Assembly: GCF_002855575.1 (NCBI RefSeq)
Contig: NZ_PKRQ01000001.1
Location: 248,001 to 312,000 of the forward strand
Reading direction: 5' to 3'
DNA: 64,000 nucleotides
Origin: Tabrizicola sp. TH137
GTDB taxonomy: Bacteria > Pseudomonadota > Alphaproteobacteria > Rhodobacterales > Rhodobacteraceae
Below are positions 3,870 to 35,902 of the stretch, piece after piece. Made by a program: the position numbers and the translations under genes. The notes below the pieces were generated by a model. It was not told the DNA's origin and searched no databases. It saw only the letters and a program-made list of their open reading frames with translations. Positions within the stretch are counted from its first letter, which is position 1. Every line of letters starts with the position of its first letter.

Positions 3870-4889
3870 TCAGGGCCGCACCGTCGTCCCCGCCACGATC
3901 TGGAAATCGACCAGATCCGTCCGCGCCTCCCCCGGTTGCAGCAAGGCCTGCGCCGCACGGGCGCCGATCTCGTGCAATGGCACTTCCAGCGTGGTCAGCC
4001 GCGTCTGGATCGCATGGCGCAGCGACGTGCCGTTGAACCCGATGACGGATGTCCGCCCCGGCACCTCCACCCCGGCCGCCAGCAGCGCGCGCAGGCCGCC
4101 AATCGCCATCGCATCGTTCAGGTAATGGATCGCCTCGGGCGGCGGCCCCTCGGCCAGCAGCGCGGCCGTCAGCGCCTCGCCCGTCACCACATCGCGCGGC
4201 AGCGCATCATCGGCCAGCACCCGGCAGCGTCCCCCGGCCTCTTCCAGCCGCTGGCGGAACCCTTCCAGCCGCCGCGCGGCGCACAGATCGCGGTCCAGTT
4301 GCGCCCCGACATAGCAGGCATCCCGCAACCCGCGCGACAGGAAGATATCCGCCGCCGCCCGCCCCGCCGCCCGATGCGACAGGCCCACCGTGGCATCCAG
4401 ATCAGGCCGGTCGCCATCCCAAAGCTGCACGCAGCGCACCCCGCTTTGCCGCAGCACATGCATGGTGGCCCCGGTCCGCTCCAGCCCCCCGGTCAGGATC
4501 AGCCCCGACGGTTTCAGCGACAGCACCGTCCGCACCAGCCGCGCCTCGTTCTCCGGATCGAAAAAGGTCTCGCCGATGAAACTGGAAAACCCCTTCGGGA
4601 CAAGCACCGCATTGATCCCGGCCAGAACGCCCGAATAGACCATGTCGCCGATCGACGGGATCAGGATGCCCACGATCTGGCTGCTCTGCGACGACAGCGC
4701 CCCTGCCAGACCATTCGGCACATAGCCCAGGTCATCGGCCACCTGCATCACCCGCTGCCGCGTCGCCAGGCTGATCCGCCCGGTGCCGCGCAGCACCTTG
4801 GACACGGTCATCGGGCTGACGCCAGCCGCCGCAGCCACCGTCACGATTGTTGGCGCCTTGGGTCCGGCGGGGGGTTGACTCGATTTCAT
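3870..4889 (-). CDS. LacI-family transcriptional repressor
   Basis: A 339-residue regulator. The N-terminal helix-turn-helix (about residues 14-35, with SPMTVSKVLRG as the recognition helix) is followed by a LacI hinge and a periplasmic-binding-protein-like effector domain. The start ATG at 4889-4887 lies directly against the palindrome at 4890-4901 and has no Shine-Dalgarno sequence, so autoregulation is likely and the mRNA may be leaderless. A longer open frame exists upstream but would read through the operators and into dctQ, so I rejected it. It is divergent from dctQMP and convergent with the ABC operon, and probably controls both. The effector is unknown. Confidence 0.92.
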   Translation of the reverse strand: MKSSQPPAGPKAPTIVTVAAAAGVSPMTVSKVLRGTGRISLATRQRVMQVADDLGYVPNGLAGALSSQSSQIVGILIPSIGDMVYSGVLAGINAVLVPKGFSSFIGETFFDPENEARLVRTVLSLKPSGLILTGGLERTGATMHVLRQSGVRCVQLWDGDRPDLDATVGLSHRAAGRAAADIFLSRGLRDACYVGAQLDRDLCAARRLEGFRQRLEEAGGRCRVLADDALPRDVVTGEALTAALLAEGPPPEAIHYLNDAMAIGGLRALLAAGVEVPGRTSVIGFNGTSLRHAIQTRLTTLEVPLHEIGARAAQALLQPGEARTDLVDFQIVAGTTVRP

Positions 4890-4920
4890 GTTATCGTTAC
4901 CACTTTGGGTTAACGATAAC
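4890..4920. promoter_or_regulatory. Two LacI-type operator sites between lacI and dctQ
   Basis: GTTATCGTTACC (4890-4901) and GTTAACGATAAC (4909-4920) lie 19 bp centre to centre. The second differs by one base from the perfect site at 64-75; the first has one good half. They cover the lacI start and probably the divergent promoter, fitting combined auto- and transporter repression. Direct binding is inferred from position and similarity. Confidence 0.6.
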
Positions 4921-4976
4921 CCACCGGAGGTTTTCCCCGCAAGGGAAAAGAGGGTTTCGCCGCAGAGGAGGAAGGA

Positions 4977-5462
4977 ATGCCAACTGTCGTCAGACGGTTC
5001 TGGTCGGTTATCGACCTTGTTCTGGTGGCCCTGCTGGGCGCCATGATCGCCATCGTCTTCGCCAATGTCGTGCTGCGCTACGGCTTTTCCTCCGGCATCC
5101 GCCAATCGGTCGAACTGGCCCGCCTGGCCTTTGTCTGGATCGCCCTTCTCGGCGCGGCGGTCACCCTGCGCCGCGACGAACACCTCGCGCTGACCGAGTT
5201 TTCCGAACGCCATTTCCCCCGCGCCGTCCCCCTGCTGCGGCGCATCTGCTGGCTGGTCGTGATCCTGACCATGGTCATGTTCTTCATCGGCGCCTGGCAT
5301 CAGATGATGGCGAACTGGTCCAATATCTCGTCCCTGACCGGCCTGCCCTCGGCGCTCTTCTATCTGGCGGGCGTGGTCTCGGCCCTGCTGATGGGCGCGG
5401 TCGCCGTGGTGCGGCTGATCGACCCTACCCCCTTCGCCAAGGCGGAGGGTCACAGCGAATGA
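4977..5462 (+). CDS. dctQ: TRAP transporter small permease (DctQ-type)
   Basis: A 161-residue inner-membrane protein with four predicted transmembrane segments, the usual size for DctQ. This subunit pairs with DctM to form the secondary transporter driven by an ion gradient. A basic/acidic loop with LRRDEH lies between the second and third segments, as in the family. GAGGAGGAAG precedes the ATG. Its stop overlaps the dctM start as ATGA. The symbol names the family role only; the substrate need not be a C4-dicarboxylate. Confidence 0.88.
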   Translation: MPTVVRRFWSVIDLVLVALLGAMIAIVFANVVLRYGFSSGIRQSVELARLAFVWIALLGAAVTLRRDEHLALTEFSERHFPRAVPLLRRICWLVVILTMVMFFIGAWHQMMANWSNISSLTGLPSALFYLAGVVSALLMGAVAVVRLIDPTPFAKAEGHSE

Positions 5463-6748
5463 CCCTCGTCCTCTTCCTCGGCGTCCTCTTCCTCGGCATC
5501 CTGATCGGCCTGCCCATCGCCTTCGCGCTGCTGCTCGCCTCGGTCGCGCTGATGCTGCATCTCGACAGCTTCAACTCCGACATCCTCGCCCAGGGGCTGG
5601 TCAACGGCGTGGACAGCTTCCCCCTGCTCGCCATCCCCTTCTTCCTCGTCGCGGGCGAGGTGATGTCGCGCGGCGGCCTCTCCACCCGCATCGTCAAGCT
5701 GGCCATGACGCTGGTCGGCCACCGGCGCGGCGGCCTCGGCTATGTGGCGATCATCACCTCCATCGTGCTGGCGGGCCTCTCCGGCTCGGCCGTGGCCGAT
5801 GCGGCGGCGCTGGTGTCGATCCTGTACCCGATGATGCGCAACGCCGGCTATCCCGAAGGCCGCAGCCTTGGCCTTCTCGGTTCAGGCGGGATCATCGCCC
5901 CGATCATCCCGCCCTCGCTCCCGCTCATCCTGATGGGCGTGGCAGGCAATATCTCCATCGGCAAGCTCTTCATGGCGGGCATCGCCCCCGGCCTGATGAT
6001 GGGCCTGACCCTGATGCTGGTCTGGCGCTACCTGATGCGCAACGAAGACATCGCCACCCTGCCCCGCGCCAGCCGCGCCGAACGCCTTGCCGCGCTGAAG
6101 GATGGCTTCTGGGCGCTGCTCCTGCCCGTCATCATCATCGGCGGCATCCGCTCGGGTGCCTTCACCCCGACCGAGGCCGCCGTCGTCGCCGCCGTCTATG
6201 CCATCCTCGTCTCGCTCCTCGTCTATCGCTCTGTCACCTGGACGATGCTTTACGAGGTGCTGCTCTCCGCCGCCCGCTCCACCGCTATGGTGATGTTCCT
6301 TGTCGGCGCCGCGATGGTGGCCTCCTGGCTCATCACCGTCGCGCAACTGCCGCAGCAACTGGGCGTCTTTCTCGCCCCGCTGATCGACAATCCGCGCCTC
6401 CTGATGCTGGTCATCATGCTGATCGTCTTCGCCGTCGGCATGGTGATGGACCTCGCGCCCACGATCCTGATCCTCGTGCCGCTCTTCATGCCGCTGGTGA
6501 ACATGGCCGGGATCGACCCCGTCTATTTCGGGCTGATGTTCGTGCTGAACTGCTCCATCGGCCTGCTCACCCCGCCCGTCGGCACGGTGCTGAACGTCAT
6601 CTGCGGCGTCGCCAAGGTGAACATGAGTACCGCCGTCCGTGGCGTGACGCCCTTCGTCGCCGCCTACACGGTGCTGCTCGGCCTTTTCATCCTGTTTCCT
6701 GAACTCATCACCATTCCCGCCGAAATCCTCGGCGGATCGACCAGATAA
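5459..6748 (+). CDS. dctM: TRAP transporter large permease (DctM-type)
   Basis: A 429-residue polytopic membrane protein, the translocation subunit of the TRAP system. The conserved SGSAVADAAALV segment (about residues 108-119) and a proline-rich IIPPSLPLI re-entrant motif are visible; both are DctM hallmarks. The start ATG at 5459 overlaps the dctQ stop by four bases (ATGA), implying translational coupling. Longer upstream frames run through dctQ in another register and are shadows. Confidence 0.93.
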   Translation: MTLVLFLGVLFLGILIGLPIAFALLLASVALMLHLDSFNSDILAQGLVNGVDSFPLLAIPFFLVAGEVMSRGGLSTRIVKLAMTLVGHRRGGLGYVAIITSIVLAGLSGSAVADAAALVSILYPMMRNAGYPEGRSLGLLGSGGIIAPIIPPSLPLILMGVAGNISIGKLFMAGIAPGLMMGLTLMLVWRYLMRNEDIATLPRASRAERLAALKDGFWALLLPVIIIGGIRSGAFTPTEAAVVAAVYAILVSLLVYRSVTWTMLYEVLLSAARSTAMVMFLVGAAMVASWLITVAQLPQQLGVFLAPLIDNPRLLMLVIMLIVFAVGMVMDLAPTILILVPLFMPLVNMAGIDPVYFGLMFVLNCSIGLLTPPVGTVLNVICGVAKVNMSTAVRGVTPFVAAYTVLLGLFILFPELITIPAEILGGSTR

Positions 6749-6762
6749 AGGGAGGACTGACC

Positions 6763-7734
6763 ATGAACATTCTCAAGACGCTCGGCCTTGCTTCGGCCTT
6801 CGCCCTGTCCGCCTTCGCGGCGCAGGCGCAGACCGAACTGAAGCTCGCCCATGCCGCGCCGGAAACCGACCTGCAACAGACCCTGTCGCTCTTCTTCAAG
6901 GAACAGGTCGAGGCGCGCACCAACGGCTCCGTCACCGTGGCGATCTTCCCGCAGGGCCAGCTCGGCAATGACGCGGCCATGATCGACGGCGCCCGTTCGG
7001 GCATCATCGACATCGCCATGTCGGGCCTGAACAACTTCACCGGGCTGGTTCCCGCCGCCGGGGCCTTCGAACTGCCCTTCCTCTTCCCCGACCGCGCCAC
7101 CGCCTATGCGGTGCTGGATGGTGAGATCGGCCAGGGCATCGCTGGCGAATTCACCCAGCACGGGCTCAAGGTCCTGGGCTTCCCGGAAAACGGCTACCGC
7201 AACATGACCAACAACCGCGGCCCGATCCGCACCCCGGCCGATGTGTCGGGCCTCAACATGCGGGTCAACAATTCCAAGGCGCTGAACGAGATGTTCGCCC
7301 TTCTGGGCGCCAACCCGACACAGCTTCCCGTGGCGGAACTCTACACCGCGCTGGAAACCGGCGTCGTGGACGCGCAGGATCACCCCGTGGGCATCGTGCT
7401 GTCCTTCAAGTTCAACGAAGTGCAGCAATATCTCAGCCAGACCCAGCACGCCTATTCCGCGCTGGCGCTGGTGATGAACGACGCCAAGTTCAACAGCCTG
7501 ACGCCCGAGGAACAGAAGGTCATCGCCGAGGTCGCCGCCGAAGCCGTCGCCATGCAGCGCAAGGCCGCGCAGGACAAGGAAGCCGGCATGATCGAGGAGC
7601 TGAAGGCCGCCGGGATGGAAGTGAACACCGATGTTGACGTTGCCGCCTTCCAGGCCGCGGTCAAGCCGGTCTGGGACAGCTTCATCGCCGAACAGGGCGA
7701 TGCCGTGGTCAGCGCCATCCTCGCCGCGCAATAA
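6763..7734 (+). CDS. dctP: TRAP transporter periplasmic binding protein (DctP-type)
   Basis: A 323-residue extracytoplasmic solute receptor. The signal peptide is about residues 1-22 (cleavage after AQA). The conserved arginine that pairs with the ligand carboxylate in TRAP receptors is probably R167 in GLNMRVNN. GGGAGGA precedes the ATG. It is last in dctQMP and followed by a clear terminator. A carboxylate ligand such as a sugar acid is likely from the family and would fit the shared LacI site with the sugar ABC operon, but this is inference. Confidence 0.92.
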   Translation: MNILKTLGLASAFALSAFAAQAQTELKLAHAAPETDLQQTLSLFFKEQVEARTNGSVTVAIFPQGQLGNDAAMIDGARSGIIDIAMSGLNNFTGLVPAAGAFELPFLFPDRATAYAVLDGEIGQGIAGEFTQHGLKVLGFPENGYRNMTNNRGPIRTPADVSGLNMRVNNSKALNEMFALLGANPTQLPVAELYTALETGVVDAQDHPVGIVLSFKFNEVQQYLSQTQHAYSALALVMNDAKFNSLTPEEQKVIAEVAAEAVAMQRKAAQDKEAGMIEELKAAGMEVNTDVDVAAFQAAVKPVWDSFIAEQGDAVVSAILAAQ

Positions 7735-32472: not shown

Positions 32473-34098
32473 ATGGCACAGGACAAATCCACCCGCCGCC
32501 CCCGCGCCGAACCCCCCAAGGGGTTCCGCGACTATTTCGGGGCCGAGGTGACCGAGCGCAAGGCGATGCTCGACAAGGTGGCAGAGGTCTATCATCGCTA
32601 CGGCTTCGACCCGCTGGAAACCAGCGCGGTGGAAACGGTGGAGGCGCTGGGTAAATTCCTCCCCGATGTGGACCGCCCCAATGAAGGCGTCTTCGCCTGG
32701 CAGGACGAGGATCAGGATTGGCTCGCCCTGCGCTATGACCTGACCGCCCCCCTCGCCCGCGTCGCCGCGCAGTTCAGGAACGACCTGCCAGCCCCCTATC
32801 GCCGCTATGCGATGGGCCCCGTCTGGCGCAACGAAAAGCCCGGGCCGGGCCGCTTCCGCCAGTTCTACCAATGCGATGCCGATACCGTCGGCGCGCCCTC
32901 CGTCGCCGCGGATGCGGAGATTTGCGCGATGCTCTCCGACGCGCTCGAAACCGTCGGCATCCCACGCGGCGATTACATCGTGCGCGTCAACAACCGCAAA
33001 GTCCTGAACGGCGTGATGGAGGTGGCGGGTGTCCTCGACCCCACCGATCCCGACCGCTTCGCCAATGAACGCGGCATCGTCCTGCGCGCGATCGACAAGA
33101 TCGACCGTCTGGGAGAGGCGGGCGTCCGCGCCCTCCTCGGCGAAGGCCGCAAGGATGACAGCGGCGATTTCACCAAGGGCGCGGGGCTTTCCCGCCTCCA
33201 GATCGATACGATTATGCGTTTTGTGGACGCACCTTACGCGATCAAGAGTGACTTGAACCAAGCCGCAGCACTTGTTGCAAAAACTGGCGGTGACACTGAC
33301 GTAGTGAACAAGCTCGCCGTTGCAGGAAGCACGCTTGCTGATCTTTTTGGCCCGCCATCACCTGAAACAAACCAACTGCGGAACTTCACCGCGCTCAAAG
33401 TGCTTCGCGACATAGTTCAATCTTCTCCGCAAGGTCTCGAAGGCGTGCAGGAACTCGAAACCATCGCAGACCTGCTCGACCGCCAAGGTTACGGCCCCGA
33501 CCGCATCCTCATCGACCCCGGCGTTGTCCGTGGCCTCGGCTATTACACCGGCCCGGTCTTCGAGGCCGAACTGACCTTCGAAATCCTCGATGAAAAGGGC
33601 CGCAAGCGGCAATTCGGCTCCGTCGCGGGCGGCGGCCGGTATGATGACCTCGTGAAACGCTTCACCGGCCAATCCGTCCCCGCAACCGGCGTCTCCATCG
33701 GCGTGGACCGCCTTCTCGCCGCGCTCCGCGCCAAGGGACGCAGCAGCGCCGATACCCAAGGCCCCATCGTCGTCACCGTCATGGACCGCGACCGCATGGC
33801 CGATTACATGGGCATGGTGGCCGACCTGCGCAACGCGGGCCTGCGGGCCGAGGTCTACTTGGGCAACCCCAAGAACTTCGGCAACCAGCTCAAATATGCC
33901 GACAAGCGCCAATCCCCCATCGCCGTGATCCAGGGCGGGAACGAGGCCGAAAAGGGCAGCGTCATCCTCAAGGACCTCATCCTCGGCGCGCAGATCGCGC
34001 AGAACGCGACGCTGGAGGAATGGAAGGACCGCCCCGCACAGGTCGAGGTTCCGCGCAGCGACCTCGTTGCCGCCGCCCGCAAGATGCTGGGGAAATGA
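32473..34098 (+). CDS. hisS: Histidyl-tRNA synthetase
   Basis: A 541-residue class II aminoacyl-tRNA synthetase that charges tRNA-His. Motif 2 ([20 protein letters not shown]), the histidine-binding [14 protein letters not shown] and motif 3 ([13 protein letters not shown]) are present, with a C-terminal anticodon domain. It looks about 40 residues longer than related enzymes I recall. The excess maps to about residues 245-325, encoded by 33205-33445, where GC falls to roughly 52% by hand count against nearly 70% just upstream and codon choice changes. The frame stays open. The stop overlaps hisZ (ATGA). Confidence 0.93.
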
Positions 34099-35195
34099 CA
34101 GCCAAGGCCGCCATCCGACAAGAGGCCGAAAGCCTCTTCGCCGCCTTCCGCGCCGAAGGGGCCGTCCCGGTCGAGACGGATATCCTGCAAACCGCCGAAA
34201 CCCTGCTCGACCTTTACGGCGAAGACATCCGCGCCCGCGCCTATGTCACGACCGATCCCCTGCGCGGCGAAATGATGCTGCGCCCCGATTTTACCGTCCC
34301 CGTGGTGCAGGCCCATATGGCCCATGGCGCGGAACCCGCGCGCTACTGCTATATGGGCGAAGTCTTCCGCAAACAGGACAGCCCCGGCACCCGCGCCAAC
34401 GAATACCTGCAAGTCGGGTTCGAACTCTTCGACCGCACCGCGCCGGAACAGGCCGATGCGCAGGTCTTCGCCCTCTTCGCCCGGCTCCTCGCGCCGCTGT
34501 CCTTGCGCGCCGCCACGGGCGACATCGGCATCCTCATGGCCGCCGTGCGCGGCCTCTCCACCACCGACCGCCGCAAGGCGGCGCTCCTGCGCCACATCTG
34601 GCGCCCCAACCGCTTCCGCGCGCTGCTGGATCGCTTCTCCGGCCGCGCGCCCATGCCCGCCGCCCGCGCCGCGCTGCTCGACCACCTCCAGAAAGACAGC
34701 CCCGAAGCACTGACCCGCGCCGCCGGAACCCTCGTCGGCCTGCGCTCGCCCGAAGACATCGCCGCCCGCGCCCGCGCCCTGATCGACGATGCCGCCACGC
34801 CGCCCATCGCCGCGCCCGAGGCGGCGCTTCTCTACGATCTCCTTTCCCTGCAAGCCCCCGCCCGCGCCGCGCTCAACCATCTGCGCGGCATCACCCCCAT
34901 GCTGCCCGCCATCGCCCCCGCCGTGGACCGCTTCGCCGCCCGCCTCGACGCGCTCGACAGGCTCGGCACAGACACCGAAACACTCCCCTTCGAGGCCAGC
35001 CATGGCCGCACCTCCCTCGAATATTACGACGGCTTCGTCTTCTCCTTCCACGCCGCCGACCCCAGCCTTCCCCCCGTCGCCTCCGGCGGCCGCTATGACG
35101 CGCTGACCGCCGTCCTCGGTCAGGGCCGCTCCATCCCCGCCGTGGGGGGCGTCATCCGCCCCGGCCTCGTCGCCCGGCTGAAAGGGTCCGTCTGA
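34095..35195 (+). CDS. hisZ: ATP phosphoribosyltransferase regulatory subunit
   Basis: A 366-residue paralogue of HisRS lacking the anticodon domain and motif integrity. It forms the hetero-octamer with short-form HisG at the first step of histidine biosynthesis. [14 protein letters not shown] and YMGEVFRKQ correspond to HisRS motifs that have lost tRNA charging. Its ATG overlaps the hisS stop, and its stop overlaps the hisG start (TGATG). Confidence 0.92.
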
Positions 35196-35902
35196 TGCTC
35201 AAGATCGGCGTCCCCTCCAAAGGCCGGCTGATGGAGAAAACCTTTCAATGGTTCGGCGCGCGCGGCATCGCCATGCGCCAGACCGGGAATGACCGCGAGT
35301 ATTCCGGCGCGGTCGAAGGCATCGACGGTGTCGAACTCGTCCTCCTCTCCGCTGGTGAAATCCCGCGCGAGCTTTCCGCCGGTCGCATCCACCTTGGCGT
35401 CACCGGATCGGACCTCGTCCGCGACAAGCTCGCCGACTGGCCCGCCCAGGTGGCCGAACTCGCCCCCCTCGGCTTCGGCCATGCCGACCTCGTCCTCGCC
35501 GTCCCCGTGGCCTGGATCGACGTCGATACGCTCGATGACCTCGACGCCGCCGCCGCCGCCTTCCGCGCGGCCCATGGCCACCGCCTGCGCATCGCCACGA
35601 AATACCACCGCCTCGTGCGCGAGTTCCTGACGAAAAACGGCGTGGCGGATTATCAACTGGTGGACAGTCAGGGCGCGACCGAAGGCACGGTGAAAAACCT
35701 CACCGCCGAGGCTATCGCCGATATCACCTCCACCGGCGAAACCCTGCGCGCCAACCACCTCAAGGTGCTCTCCGACGGGCTGATCCACCAGTCGCAGGCG
35801 GTGCTCTTCCTTGCCCGCGCCGCCGAATGGGGCGCAGGCGATCGCGCCACCCTCGCCACCCTCTGCGCCCGCCTCGGCGTCACGCCGCCGGCCGACCTCT
35901 GA
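35195..35902 (+). CDS. hisG: ATP phosphoribosyltransferase, short form
   Basis: A 235-residue catalytic subunit that joins ATP and PRPP in the first committed step of histidine synthesis. It begins [28 protein letters not shown] and the PRPP loop VDSQGATEGTVKNL are intact. It lacks the C-terminal regulatory domain of long HisG, which is why hisZ is present. Last of hisS-hisZ-hisG. Confidence 0.95.
   Translation: MLKIGVPSKGRLMEKTFQWFGARGIAMRQTGNDREYSGAVEGIDGVELVLLSAGEIPRELSAGRIHLGVTGSDLVRDKLADWPAQVAELAPLGFGHADLVLAVPVAWIDVDTLDDLDAAAAAFRAAHGHRLRIATKYHRLVREFLTKNGVADYQLVDSQGATEGTVKNLTAEAIADITSTGETLRANHLKVLSDGLIHQSQAVLFLARAAEWGAGDRATLATLCARLGVTPPADL

Follow-up and report, generated by a model that had tools for sequence, protein, structure and literature searches.

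A hypervariable tip in the histidyl-tRNA synthetase of Rhodobacteraceae and its probable exchange between lineages

The histidyl-tRNA synthetase gene (hisS) of Rhodobacteraceae contains a hypervariable site that recurs across the family and whose unrelated alleles number in the dozens, which is more than the initial annotation of this DNA could show. The low-GC tract within hisS of Tabrizicola sp. TH137 is very probably one allele of an exchangeable module that forms the tip of the insertion domain of the enzyme (HisRS), and homologous recombination is the probable route of exchange. That the diversity is kept by an antagonist binding HisRS at this tip is put forward tentatively, at slightly under even odds. 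To the explanation as a whole we give a confidence of about 0.7. The window is the entire stretch of DNA that was analysed, 64,000 nucleotides long, and the features discussed are located in Table 1.

The hisS gene and its low-GC tract

In the window, hisS is followed by hisZ and then hisG. Its product is a full-length HisRS by the TIGR00442 hisS equivalog model, at 375.2 bits (curated cut-off 286.75), and most positions in the regions that we take to be the catalytic motifs are invariant or conserved to 90% or more across 73 aligned proteins. The enzyme is predicted to charge tRNA-His. One study describes the alphaproteobacterial HisRS type as eukaryotic-derived and the tRNA-His of the group as unusual (PMC3937112).

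Table 1. Location in the window of hisS, the genes downstream and the parts of the hypervariable tract
Feature	Position	Strand	Basis
hisS, histidyl-tRNA synthetase, 541 aa	32473..34098	+	translation (ATG at 32473); TIGR00442 match
Probable exchanged hypervariable tract, codons ~240-322, GC ~0.52	33190..33440	+	codon-by-codon comparison with eight short-form sequences; sliding identity; alignments
Allele core: segment 33190-33465 minus 12 N-terminal and 24 C-terminal residues	33226..33393	+	core blastp clusters; profile search of 390 genomes of the order
Predicted helices 241-251, 253-270, 275-284, 289-292 and 297-315, tip of the insertion domain	33193..33417	+	AlphaFold2 model
hisZ, overlapping the end of hisS; ordinary composition, control	34095..35195	+	ORF list; start by translation; GC3 control
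hisG; ordinary composition, control	35195..35902	+	ORF list; GC3 control

The initial annotation had pointed, by hand count, to a low-GC and differently coded segment inside hisS, and the count was accurate: GC is 0.517 at 33241-33420 against 0.700 at 33121-33180. Over 33205-33445 it is 0.523, compared with 0.643 for hisS and 0.678 for the 64-kb window, and 33186-33446 is the sole place in the 64 kb where GC falls to 0.523 or below (241-bp windows, 5-bp steps). The codons said to be avoided by the neighbouring sequence behave as described, since ACT occurs twice and GTA once in codons 245-325 and both are absent from the other 460 codons of hisS, while CTT occurs four times there and twice in the rest of the gene. 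Codon types absent from the rest of hisS account for 14 of these 81 codons. The frame is intact as claimed, and the protein, which had been thought to be about 40 residues longer than its relatives, exceeds its nearest relative (L002, 495 aa) by 46 residues.

Among the 18 other genomes of the genus, 17 give two matches to the window protein, stopping near residue 252-256 and resuming near 307-311; in the remaining one (G015) hisS is broken over contigs. All 17 readable congeners have 46 residues where the window gene has 92, and the long state is thus confined in this sample to the window's own gene, one of 18 readable. Nearest by its flanks is L002 (96.2% protein identity, flank dS 0.34), to which the hisS DNA outside the tract is 80-100% identical per 15-codon bin. 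In a comparison with eight short-form sequences, which include L002 and L087, apparently one genome twice, the change sets in abruptly near codon 240 and ends as abruptly near codon 322 (nt ~33190-33440), and some 83 codons stand in place of some 37 short-form codons. Because these are homologous codons that have been replaced, the tract is not a plain insertion. The recombination first suggested for it gains support from this abrupt departure from the short form of all 17 readable congeners. A check showed that the segment and its composition are not shared by all close relatives.

An AlphaFold2 model of the window protein places helices in the segment that continue the insertion domain, with block pLDDT values of 93-98, and of 78-83 at residues 281-300. 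The segment is thus predicted to be a folded helical tip of the insertion domain. In the model of a second allele (L117) the framing helices are kept, with a 24-residue loop between them (pLDDT 57-89). Compared as a whole with solved structures (VIA-align), the window model matches HisRS structures with a best Z of 31, and a Z of 24 for the tRNA complex 4rdx. Like known HisRS (TIGR00442/PF13393), the protein aligns in its highly conserved catalytic parts and its model matches solved structures; it differs in that nothing is aligned to residues ~226-299 in the alignments of four of the 22 structure matches.

Two states of the tip and many long alleles

The family survey took almost wholly one genome per genus, and 383 of its 394 genomes have a HisRS match. 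At least 55 of them, the window's own included, match the long protein in one piece from residue 1 (G172 and G064, counted here, end early); this is a lower bound, since G028 and G395 are long on reading despite split matches. The gene set was made up of these 55, nine others, the best 80 of 592 species-collection loci and the relatives within the genus. A partial match in G274 that spans the segment was left out, as were L001 and L082 (own gene) and L110 (a fragment), and of 169 genes 161 remained once duplicate and contained copies had been taken out. In this set 78 genes have exactly 46 residues at the site, one (L165) has 52 and 82 have 67-105; L165 is counted within the 83 genes above 50 residues and outside the 82 long ones. 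The short form therefore has one length in all 78 cases, and as long genes were fetched on purpose, the 78/82 split is no frequency.

The long form is mostly low in GC. The segment lies below its own flanks in GC in 80 of the 83 genes above 50 residues (L141, L148 and L165 are slightly above) and in GC3 in all 83, with a mean GC3 of 0.522 against 0.804; in the 78 short forms the values are 0.782 and 0.791. A GC3 dip of at least 0.20 over 56 codons is found in 74 of 82 long hisS genes against 1 of 78 short ones, and in none of 85 hisZ (29 of them beside a long hisS), 75 hisG or 30 tyrS genes. The different coding is accordingly beyond chance, such dips being nearly exclusive to long hisS among the control genes, and the GC3 minimum overlaps the segment in 79 of the 82 long genes. 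For tyrS, 58 of 61 genomes give a single match, one of these (G042) being a fragment; in G015 the gene is split over two contigs and two genomes have no match. The diversity of the segment is peculiar to hisS, with nothing similar in hisZ, hisG or tyrS. The tie between core GC3 and host GC3 is loose (r 0.37, slope 0.56, n=82), which would be expected if tips arrive repeatedly and then adjust in part, and equally if the GC drive is weaker where a site is hypervariable. Low GC3 alone is no sign of an antagonist.

Clustered by blastp, the 82 long cores fall into 15 families holding 42 genes, plus 40 singletons; some family links are weak, at E 1e-5 to 8e-4 (within {L044,L118,L134,L135,L136}, between L027 and L126, and for L006/L085). 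Kinship of cores does not follow kinship of flanks, mean flank identity being 80.6% for core-linked pairs and 80.9% for all long pairs. On a flank tree (FastTree, 448 flank columns) the long or short state requires 32 changes, and at least 13 of these are forced by starred branches. The window tract, also described at first as a possible evolving insertion, is indeed a member of a long-form class that is diversifying across the family. Among the 82 long alleles its core clusters solely with L063, which belongs to a strain genome in another genus and is 45% identical in the core and 78% in the flanks. A search with the window core in the 394 family genomes returned its own gene and eleven weak matches (E 0.0066-0.0998). 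Searching 390 genomes of the order with a profile of the window allele plus L063 gave matches in 31 (E <=0.01); apart from the own gene the best is in G908, at coordinates that fit L063. The others are weaker and lie nearly all in hisS-like frames, in part because the profile includes positions common to the short form; two are in other frames (G105:C13 and G343, E 0.0012 and 0.0066). The profile search thus gives the window allele weak kin in other hisS genes.

Turnover is rapid on the scale of a genus. In five species of genus g318 the flanks are 88-96% identical and the cores 14-26%. Across five genera, whose genomes were chosen through their matches to a profile of the window allele, cores are 12-34% identical in 17 of 18 within-genus long pairs and 77% identical in one (g387); ten records of this check overlap the main set (for example L316/L046, L324/L059, L325/L054, L310/L025 and L314/L036). 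Shuffled cores average 20% identity (95th percentile 29%, maximum 42%), and the two pairs above 29% (31 and 34%, g334 with L322, flanks 79-80%) may or may not be distant kin. Nine close pairs that differ in state or core have a flank dS of 0.33-1.00, six of them 0.33-0.55. The sisters L126/L316 and L131/L320 (0.55 for the latter) have a flank dS of 0.46-0.55 and cores without detectable kinship. The same framing pattern returns in allele after allele, FV.A...I...L and (R/W)N....L..L, and all long tips may be a single scaffold diverged beyond recognition.

Within allele families, pS of the core is 0.73-0.89 in 13 of 15 pairs (0.26 for L008/L012 and 0.56 for L146/L154), and pN is 0.04-0.40 in all 15. 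In every pair pN is below pS, with no pN/pS above 1 and no excess of amino-acid change. These values come from within-family pairs, between families a codon alignment being meaningless, and they indicate purifying selection, the amino-acid sequence of the cores being of consequence. As strong codon bias lowers the pS ceiling of the flanks, it is not claimed from synonymous saturation that cores are older than flanks. One allele family (L117, L144, L152, L153, L157 and L159) has the loop pattern GPP.PD.RIPGGMG...DPH...WNW across genera, loosest in L157; it would be a good starting point for a ligand search.

Exchange of the tip and what may maintain its diversity

The conserved flanks (FTKGAGL... 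and ...EGV.ELE) would let incoming DNA recombine in short tracts, and we infer homologous recombination within them because the ends of the tract are abrupt. Such DNA would come from other cells; gene transfer agents or phages might carry it in, and transformation is another possible way. Any folded tip of a shape to sit between the framing helices would be tolerated, catalysis and anticodon binding lying elsewhere to judge from conservation and models, and swaps of the tip would leave catalysis and tRNA recognition untouched. Rare or foreign tips would then spread. The most economical reason would be an enemy that grips the tip, such as a phage protein, a toxin or a competitor's effector, with a benign partner as the main rival. 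A tip that is swapped in an otherwise almost unchanged enzyme has the look of a response to a HisRS attacker. As at an antagonist-driven locus, there are many alleles, exchange between lineages, rapid turnover and a conserved background; since pN/pS does not exceed 1, hisS is not filed here as a proven member of the antagonist-driven diversifying loci. At somewhat less than even odds, this may be an arms race fought over an essential synthetase: a widespread factor borne by phages or competitors would attack the HisRS tip in Rhodobacteraceae, as well as at least once in Rhizobiaceae, and would be escaped by trading unrelated tips through homologous recombination, which would make this housekeeping gene an immune-type locus.

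The benign alternative is that the tip is a moonlighting module for interactions in regulation or localisation, specific to ecotypes and swapped for adaptation rather than for escape. The predicted fold, the amino acids kept within families and the horizontal sharing suit it as well, but a handful of ecotype functions would hardly seem to call for dozens of allele types, with unrelated ones in five species of a single genus, and we consider it unlikely. It is rather more improbable that constraint is simply relaxed, the tip being a dispensable, fast-drifting linker in which AT-biased mutation without codon selection gives low GC. The commonness of the short form does mean that the extra residues are needless for charging, and both the variable length of the long form and the loose tie of core GC3 to the host agree with drift. 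Against it stand amino acids kept at near-saturated synonymous sites in 13 of 15 within-family pairs, the single length of all short forms, and unrelated cores in sisters together with sharing across genera, which point to exchange; the confident helical fold predicted for the window allele also argues against a linker, though the second allele has a loop. The HisRS insertion domain adjoins the tRNA acceptor stem in known structures, and tips might then be matched to variants of tRNA-His or of another translation partner. The peculiarity of tRNA-His and HisRS in this group (PMC3937112) would suit such co-evolution, as would the variation of tRNA-His in 33 of the 44 genomes examined, ten congeners at 92-95% among them. 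In the others, however, tRNA-His is identical at 77 of 77 bases between the window genome, six short-form congeners (G002, G005, G006, G010, G012 and G014) and the carriers of four other unrelated long alleles (G028, G030, G076 and G216), five unrelated long alleles in all. Co-evolution is for this reason rejected as regards the tRNA itself, though not as regards a protein partner, and is overall quite improbable.

A selfish in-frame insert, whether an intein remnant, a palindromic element or a transposon scar, would account for the foreign composition and the precise, in-frame position. It is very improbable, and was rejected, in view of the replaced homologous codons and of several searches that returned nothing of the kind: 33150-33500 is free of repeats 12 bases long or longer, the DNA segment matches its own genome once, at hisS, the RNA folds no better than shuffles (z -0.31), Rfam gives no match, and ten allele cores have no Pfam or PHROG match below E 0.04 (best E 0.13 in PHROGs and 0.043 in Pfam, taken as nothing). 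The window core has three matches among phage records, all at E 8-9. One weak Cas11f match from PADLOC (E 0.0043, 17 residues) lies outside the segment and was taken as chance. A cassette system of the antigenic-variation or DGR-like type was dropped as well, because no silent donor or template copies were found in 33 genomes, a profile of 38 long segments giving one match per genome, the own hisS, at E <=0.01; in six of them (G002, G005 and G010, short form; G288, G283 and G427, long form) it saw only the last 26-36 positions, so that very diverged donor copies could be missed there. Finally, an assembly or sequencing artefact could be suspected from the uniqueness of the long state in the genus sample. 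The chance of this is negligible given the allele-mate L063 in another genus, the same pattern with open frames in 81 other long genes from isolates and MAGs, and the quality of the source assembly (38 contigs, rated 100% complete with 0.38% contamination).

Restriction enzymes exchange target-recognition domains, and surface proteins or drug targets have mosaic alleles. The HisRS tip is like these in its conserved frame, its swapped and unrelated central segment and its sharing across species by what is probably recombination; it is unlike them in that HisRS is essential, works in translation in the cytoplasm, and is not known to switch specificity through its tip. We know of no HisRS attacker. 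Among the matches listed in a literature search there was no HisRS antagonist, and among those from open-licence papers no title or abstract start dealt with a hypervariable HisRS tip, which is weak evidence of absence. Other synthetases are known targets: according to three papers, HipA and HipT kinases hit glutamyl- and tryptophanyl-tRNA synthetase, and agrocin 84 hits LeuRS, for which a self-immunity LeuRS exists (PMC7029023, PMC10627512, PMC5059758). The likeness to the antagonist reading of hisS is that synthetases are attacked and resistant versions exist, and the difference is that other synthetases are concerned and that escape in HisRS would lie in a swapped tip, not in a second gene.

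Housekeeping translation enzymes serve as markers of vertical descent, and HisRS would carry, beside a conserved body, a selected and freely exchanged module. If the antagonist is real, conflicts with phages or competitors have in HisRS a target that has gone unrecognised, and the allele set offers a ready panel for finding the attacker; if there is none, a partner of HisRS awaits discovery. The pattern also provides a natural example on which short-tract recombination in Rhodobacterales could be measured cleanly.

HisRS outside the family, on plasmids and in a phage

In a survey of the class (289 genomes), the hisS genes of the 25 best-scoring genomes from other families that became loci were read, and 21 have 46 residues at the site, the others having 45, 50, 64 (L232) and 31 (L243). 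Among the genes read outside the family the 46-residue form is thus the common one. Long tips arose more than once or travelled, and the pressure, if any, would be local. One long tip sits on a plasmid: hisS of Shinella zoogloeoides plasmid p1_Teo12 (L216 301-1908) has a 94-residue AT-rich segment with a GC3 of 0.351 against 0.815, while the hisS of another Shinella plasmid (L217) has 44 residues at the same place. Searched with the whole HisRS, plasmid records gave 96 matches, of which ten at 60-80% identity span 1473-1485 bp and are by that length short forms; the two matches that were read, both from Shinella, rank lower. Phage records gave 18, whose 22-34% identity means that they are not of this HisRS type.

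A virus contig, IMGVR_UViG_3300025759_000462 (L172), carries host-like genes for histidyl- and tyrosyl-tRNA synthetase (3923-5527 and 5748-6998), with GC of 0.60 and 0.56 against 0.27-0.50 in most of the surrounding DNA (300-bp bins). It also has genes for a DnaB-like helicase, a UvsX-like recombinase and a thymidylate synthase, and from these replication genes it is taken for a T4-like phage; Terminase_6N was not found on the contig, which is a fragment. The best hosts share 86-87% identity with its HisRS over the N-terminal part; for the C-terminal part the figure is 82-85%. The insertion domain is nearest to the short-form hosts L219 and L220 (67% and 63%), and the idea of a radically new tip in the phage enzyme was dropped, this domain being a short form. 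In two scans L172 was the sole virus contig to encode such a HisRS. It suggests, but does not prove, that phage infection involves HisRS, and a T4-like phage with a synthetase of its own may be the opposing party in the conflict proposed above.

Two further observations concern the layout of hisS genes. In a family member (L221 from G097) an extra stretch follows the VNNRKVLNG region; it occupies a second place in the insertion domain, upstream of the tip. In G492, a genome of the class, two hisS-like genes lie on different contigs (C24 and C51).
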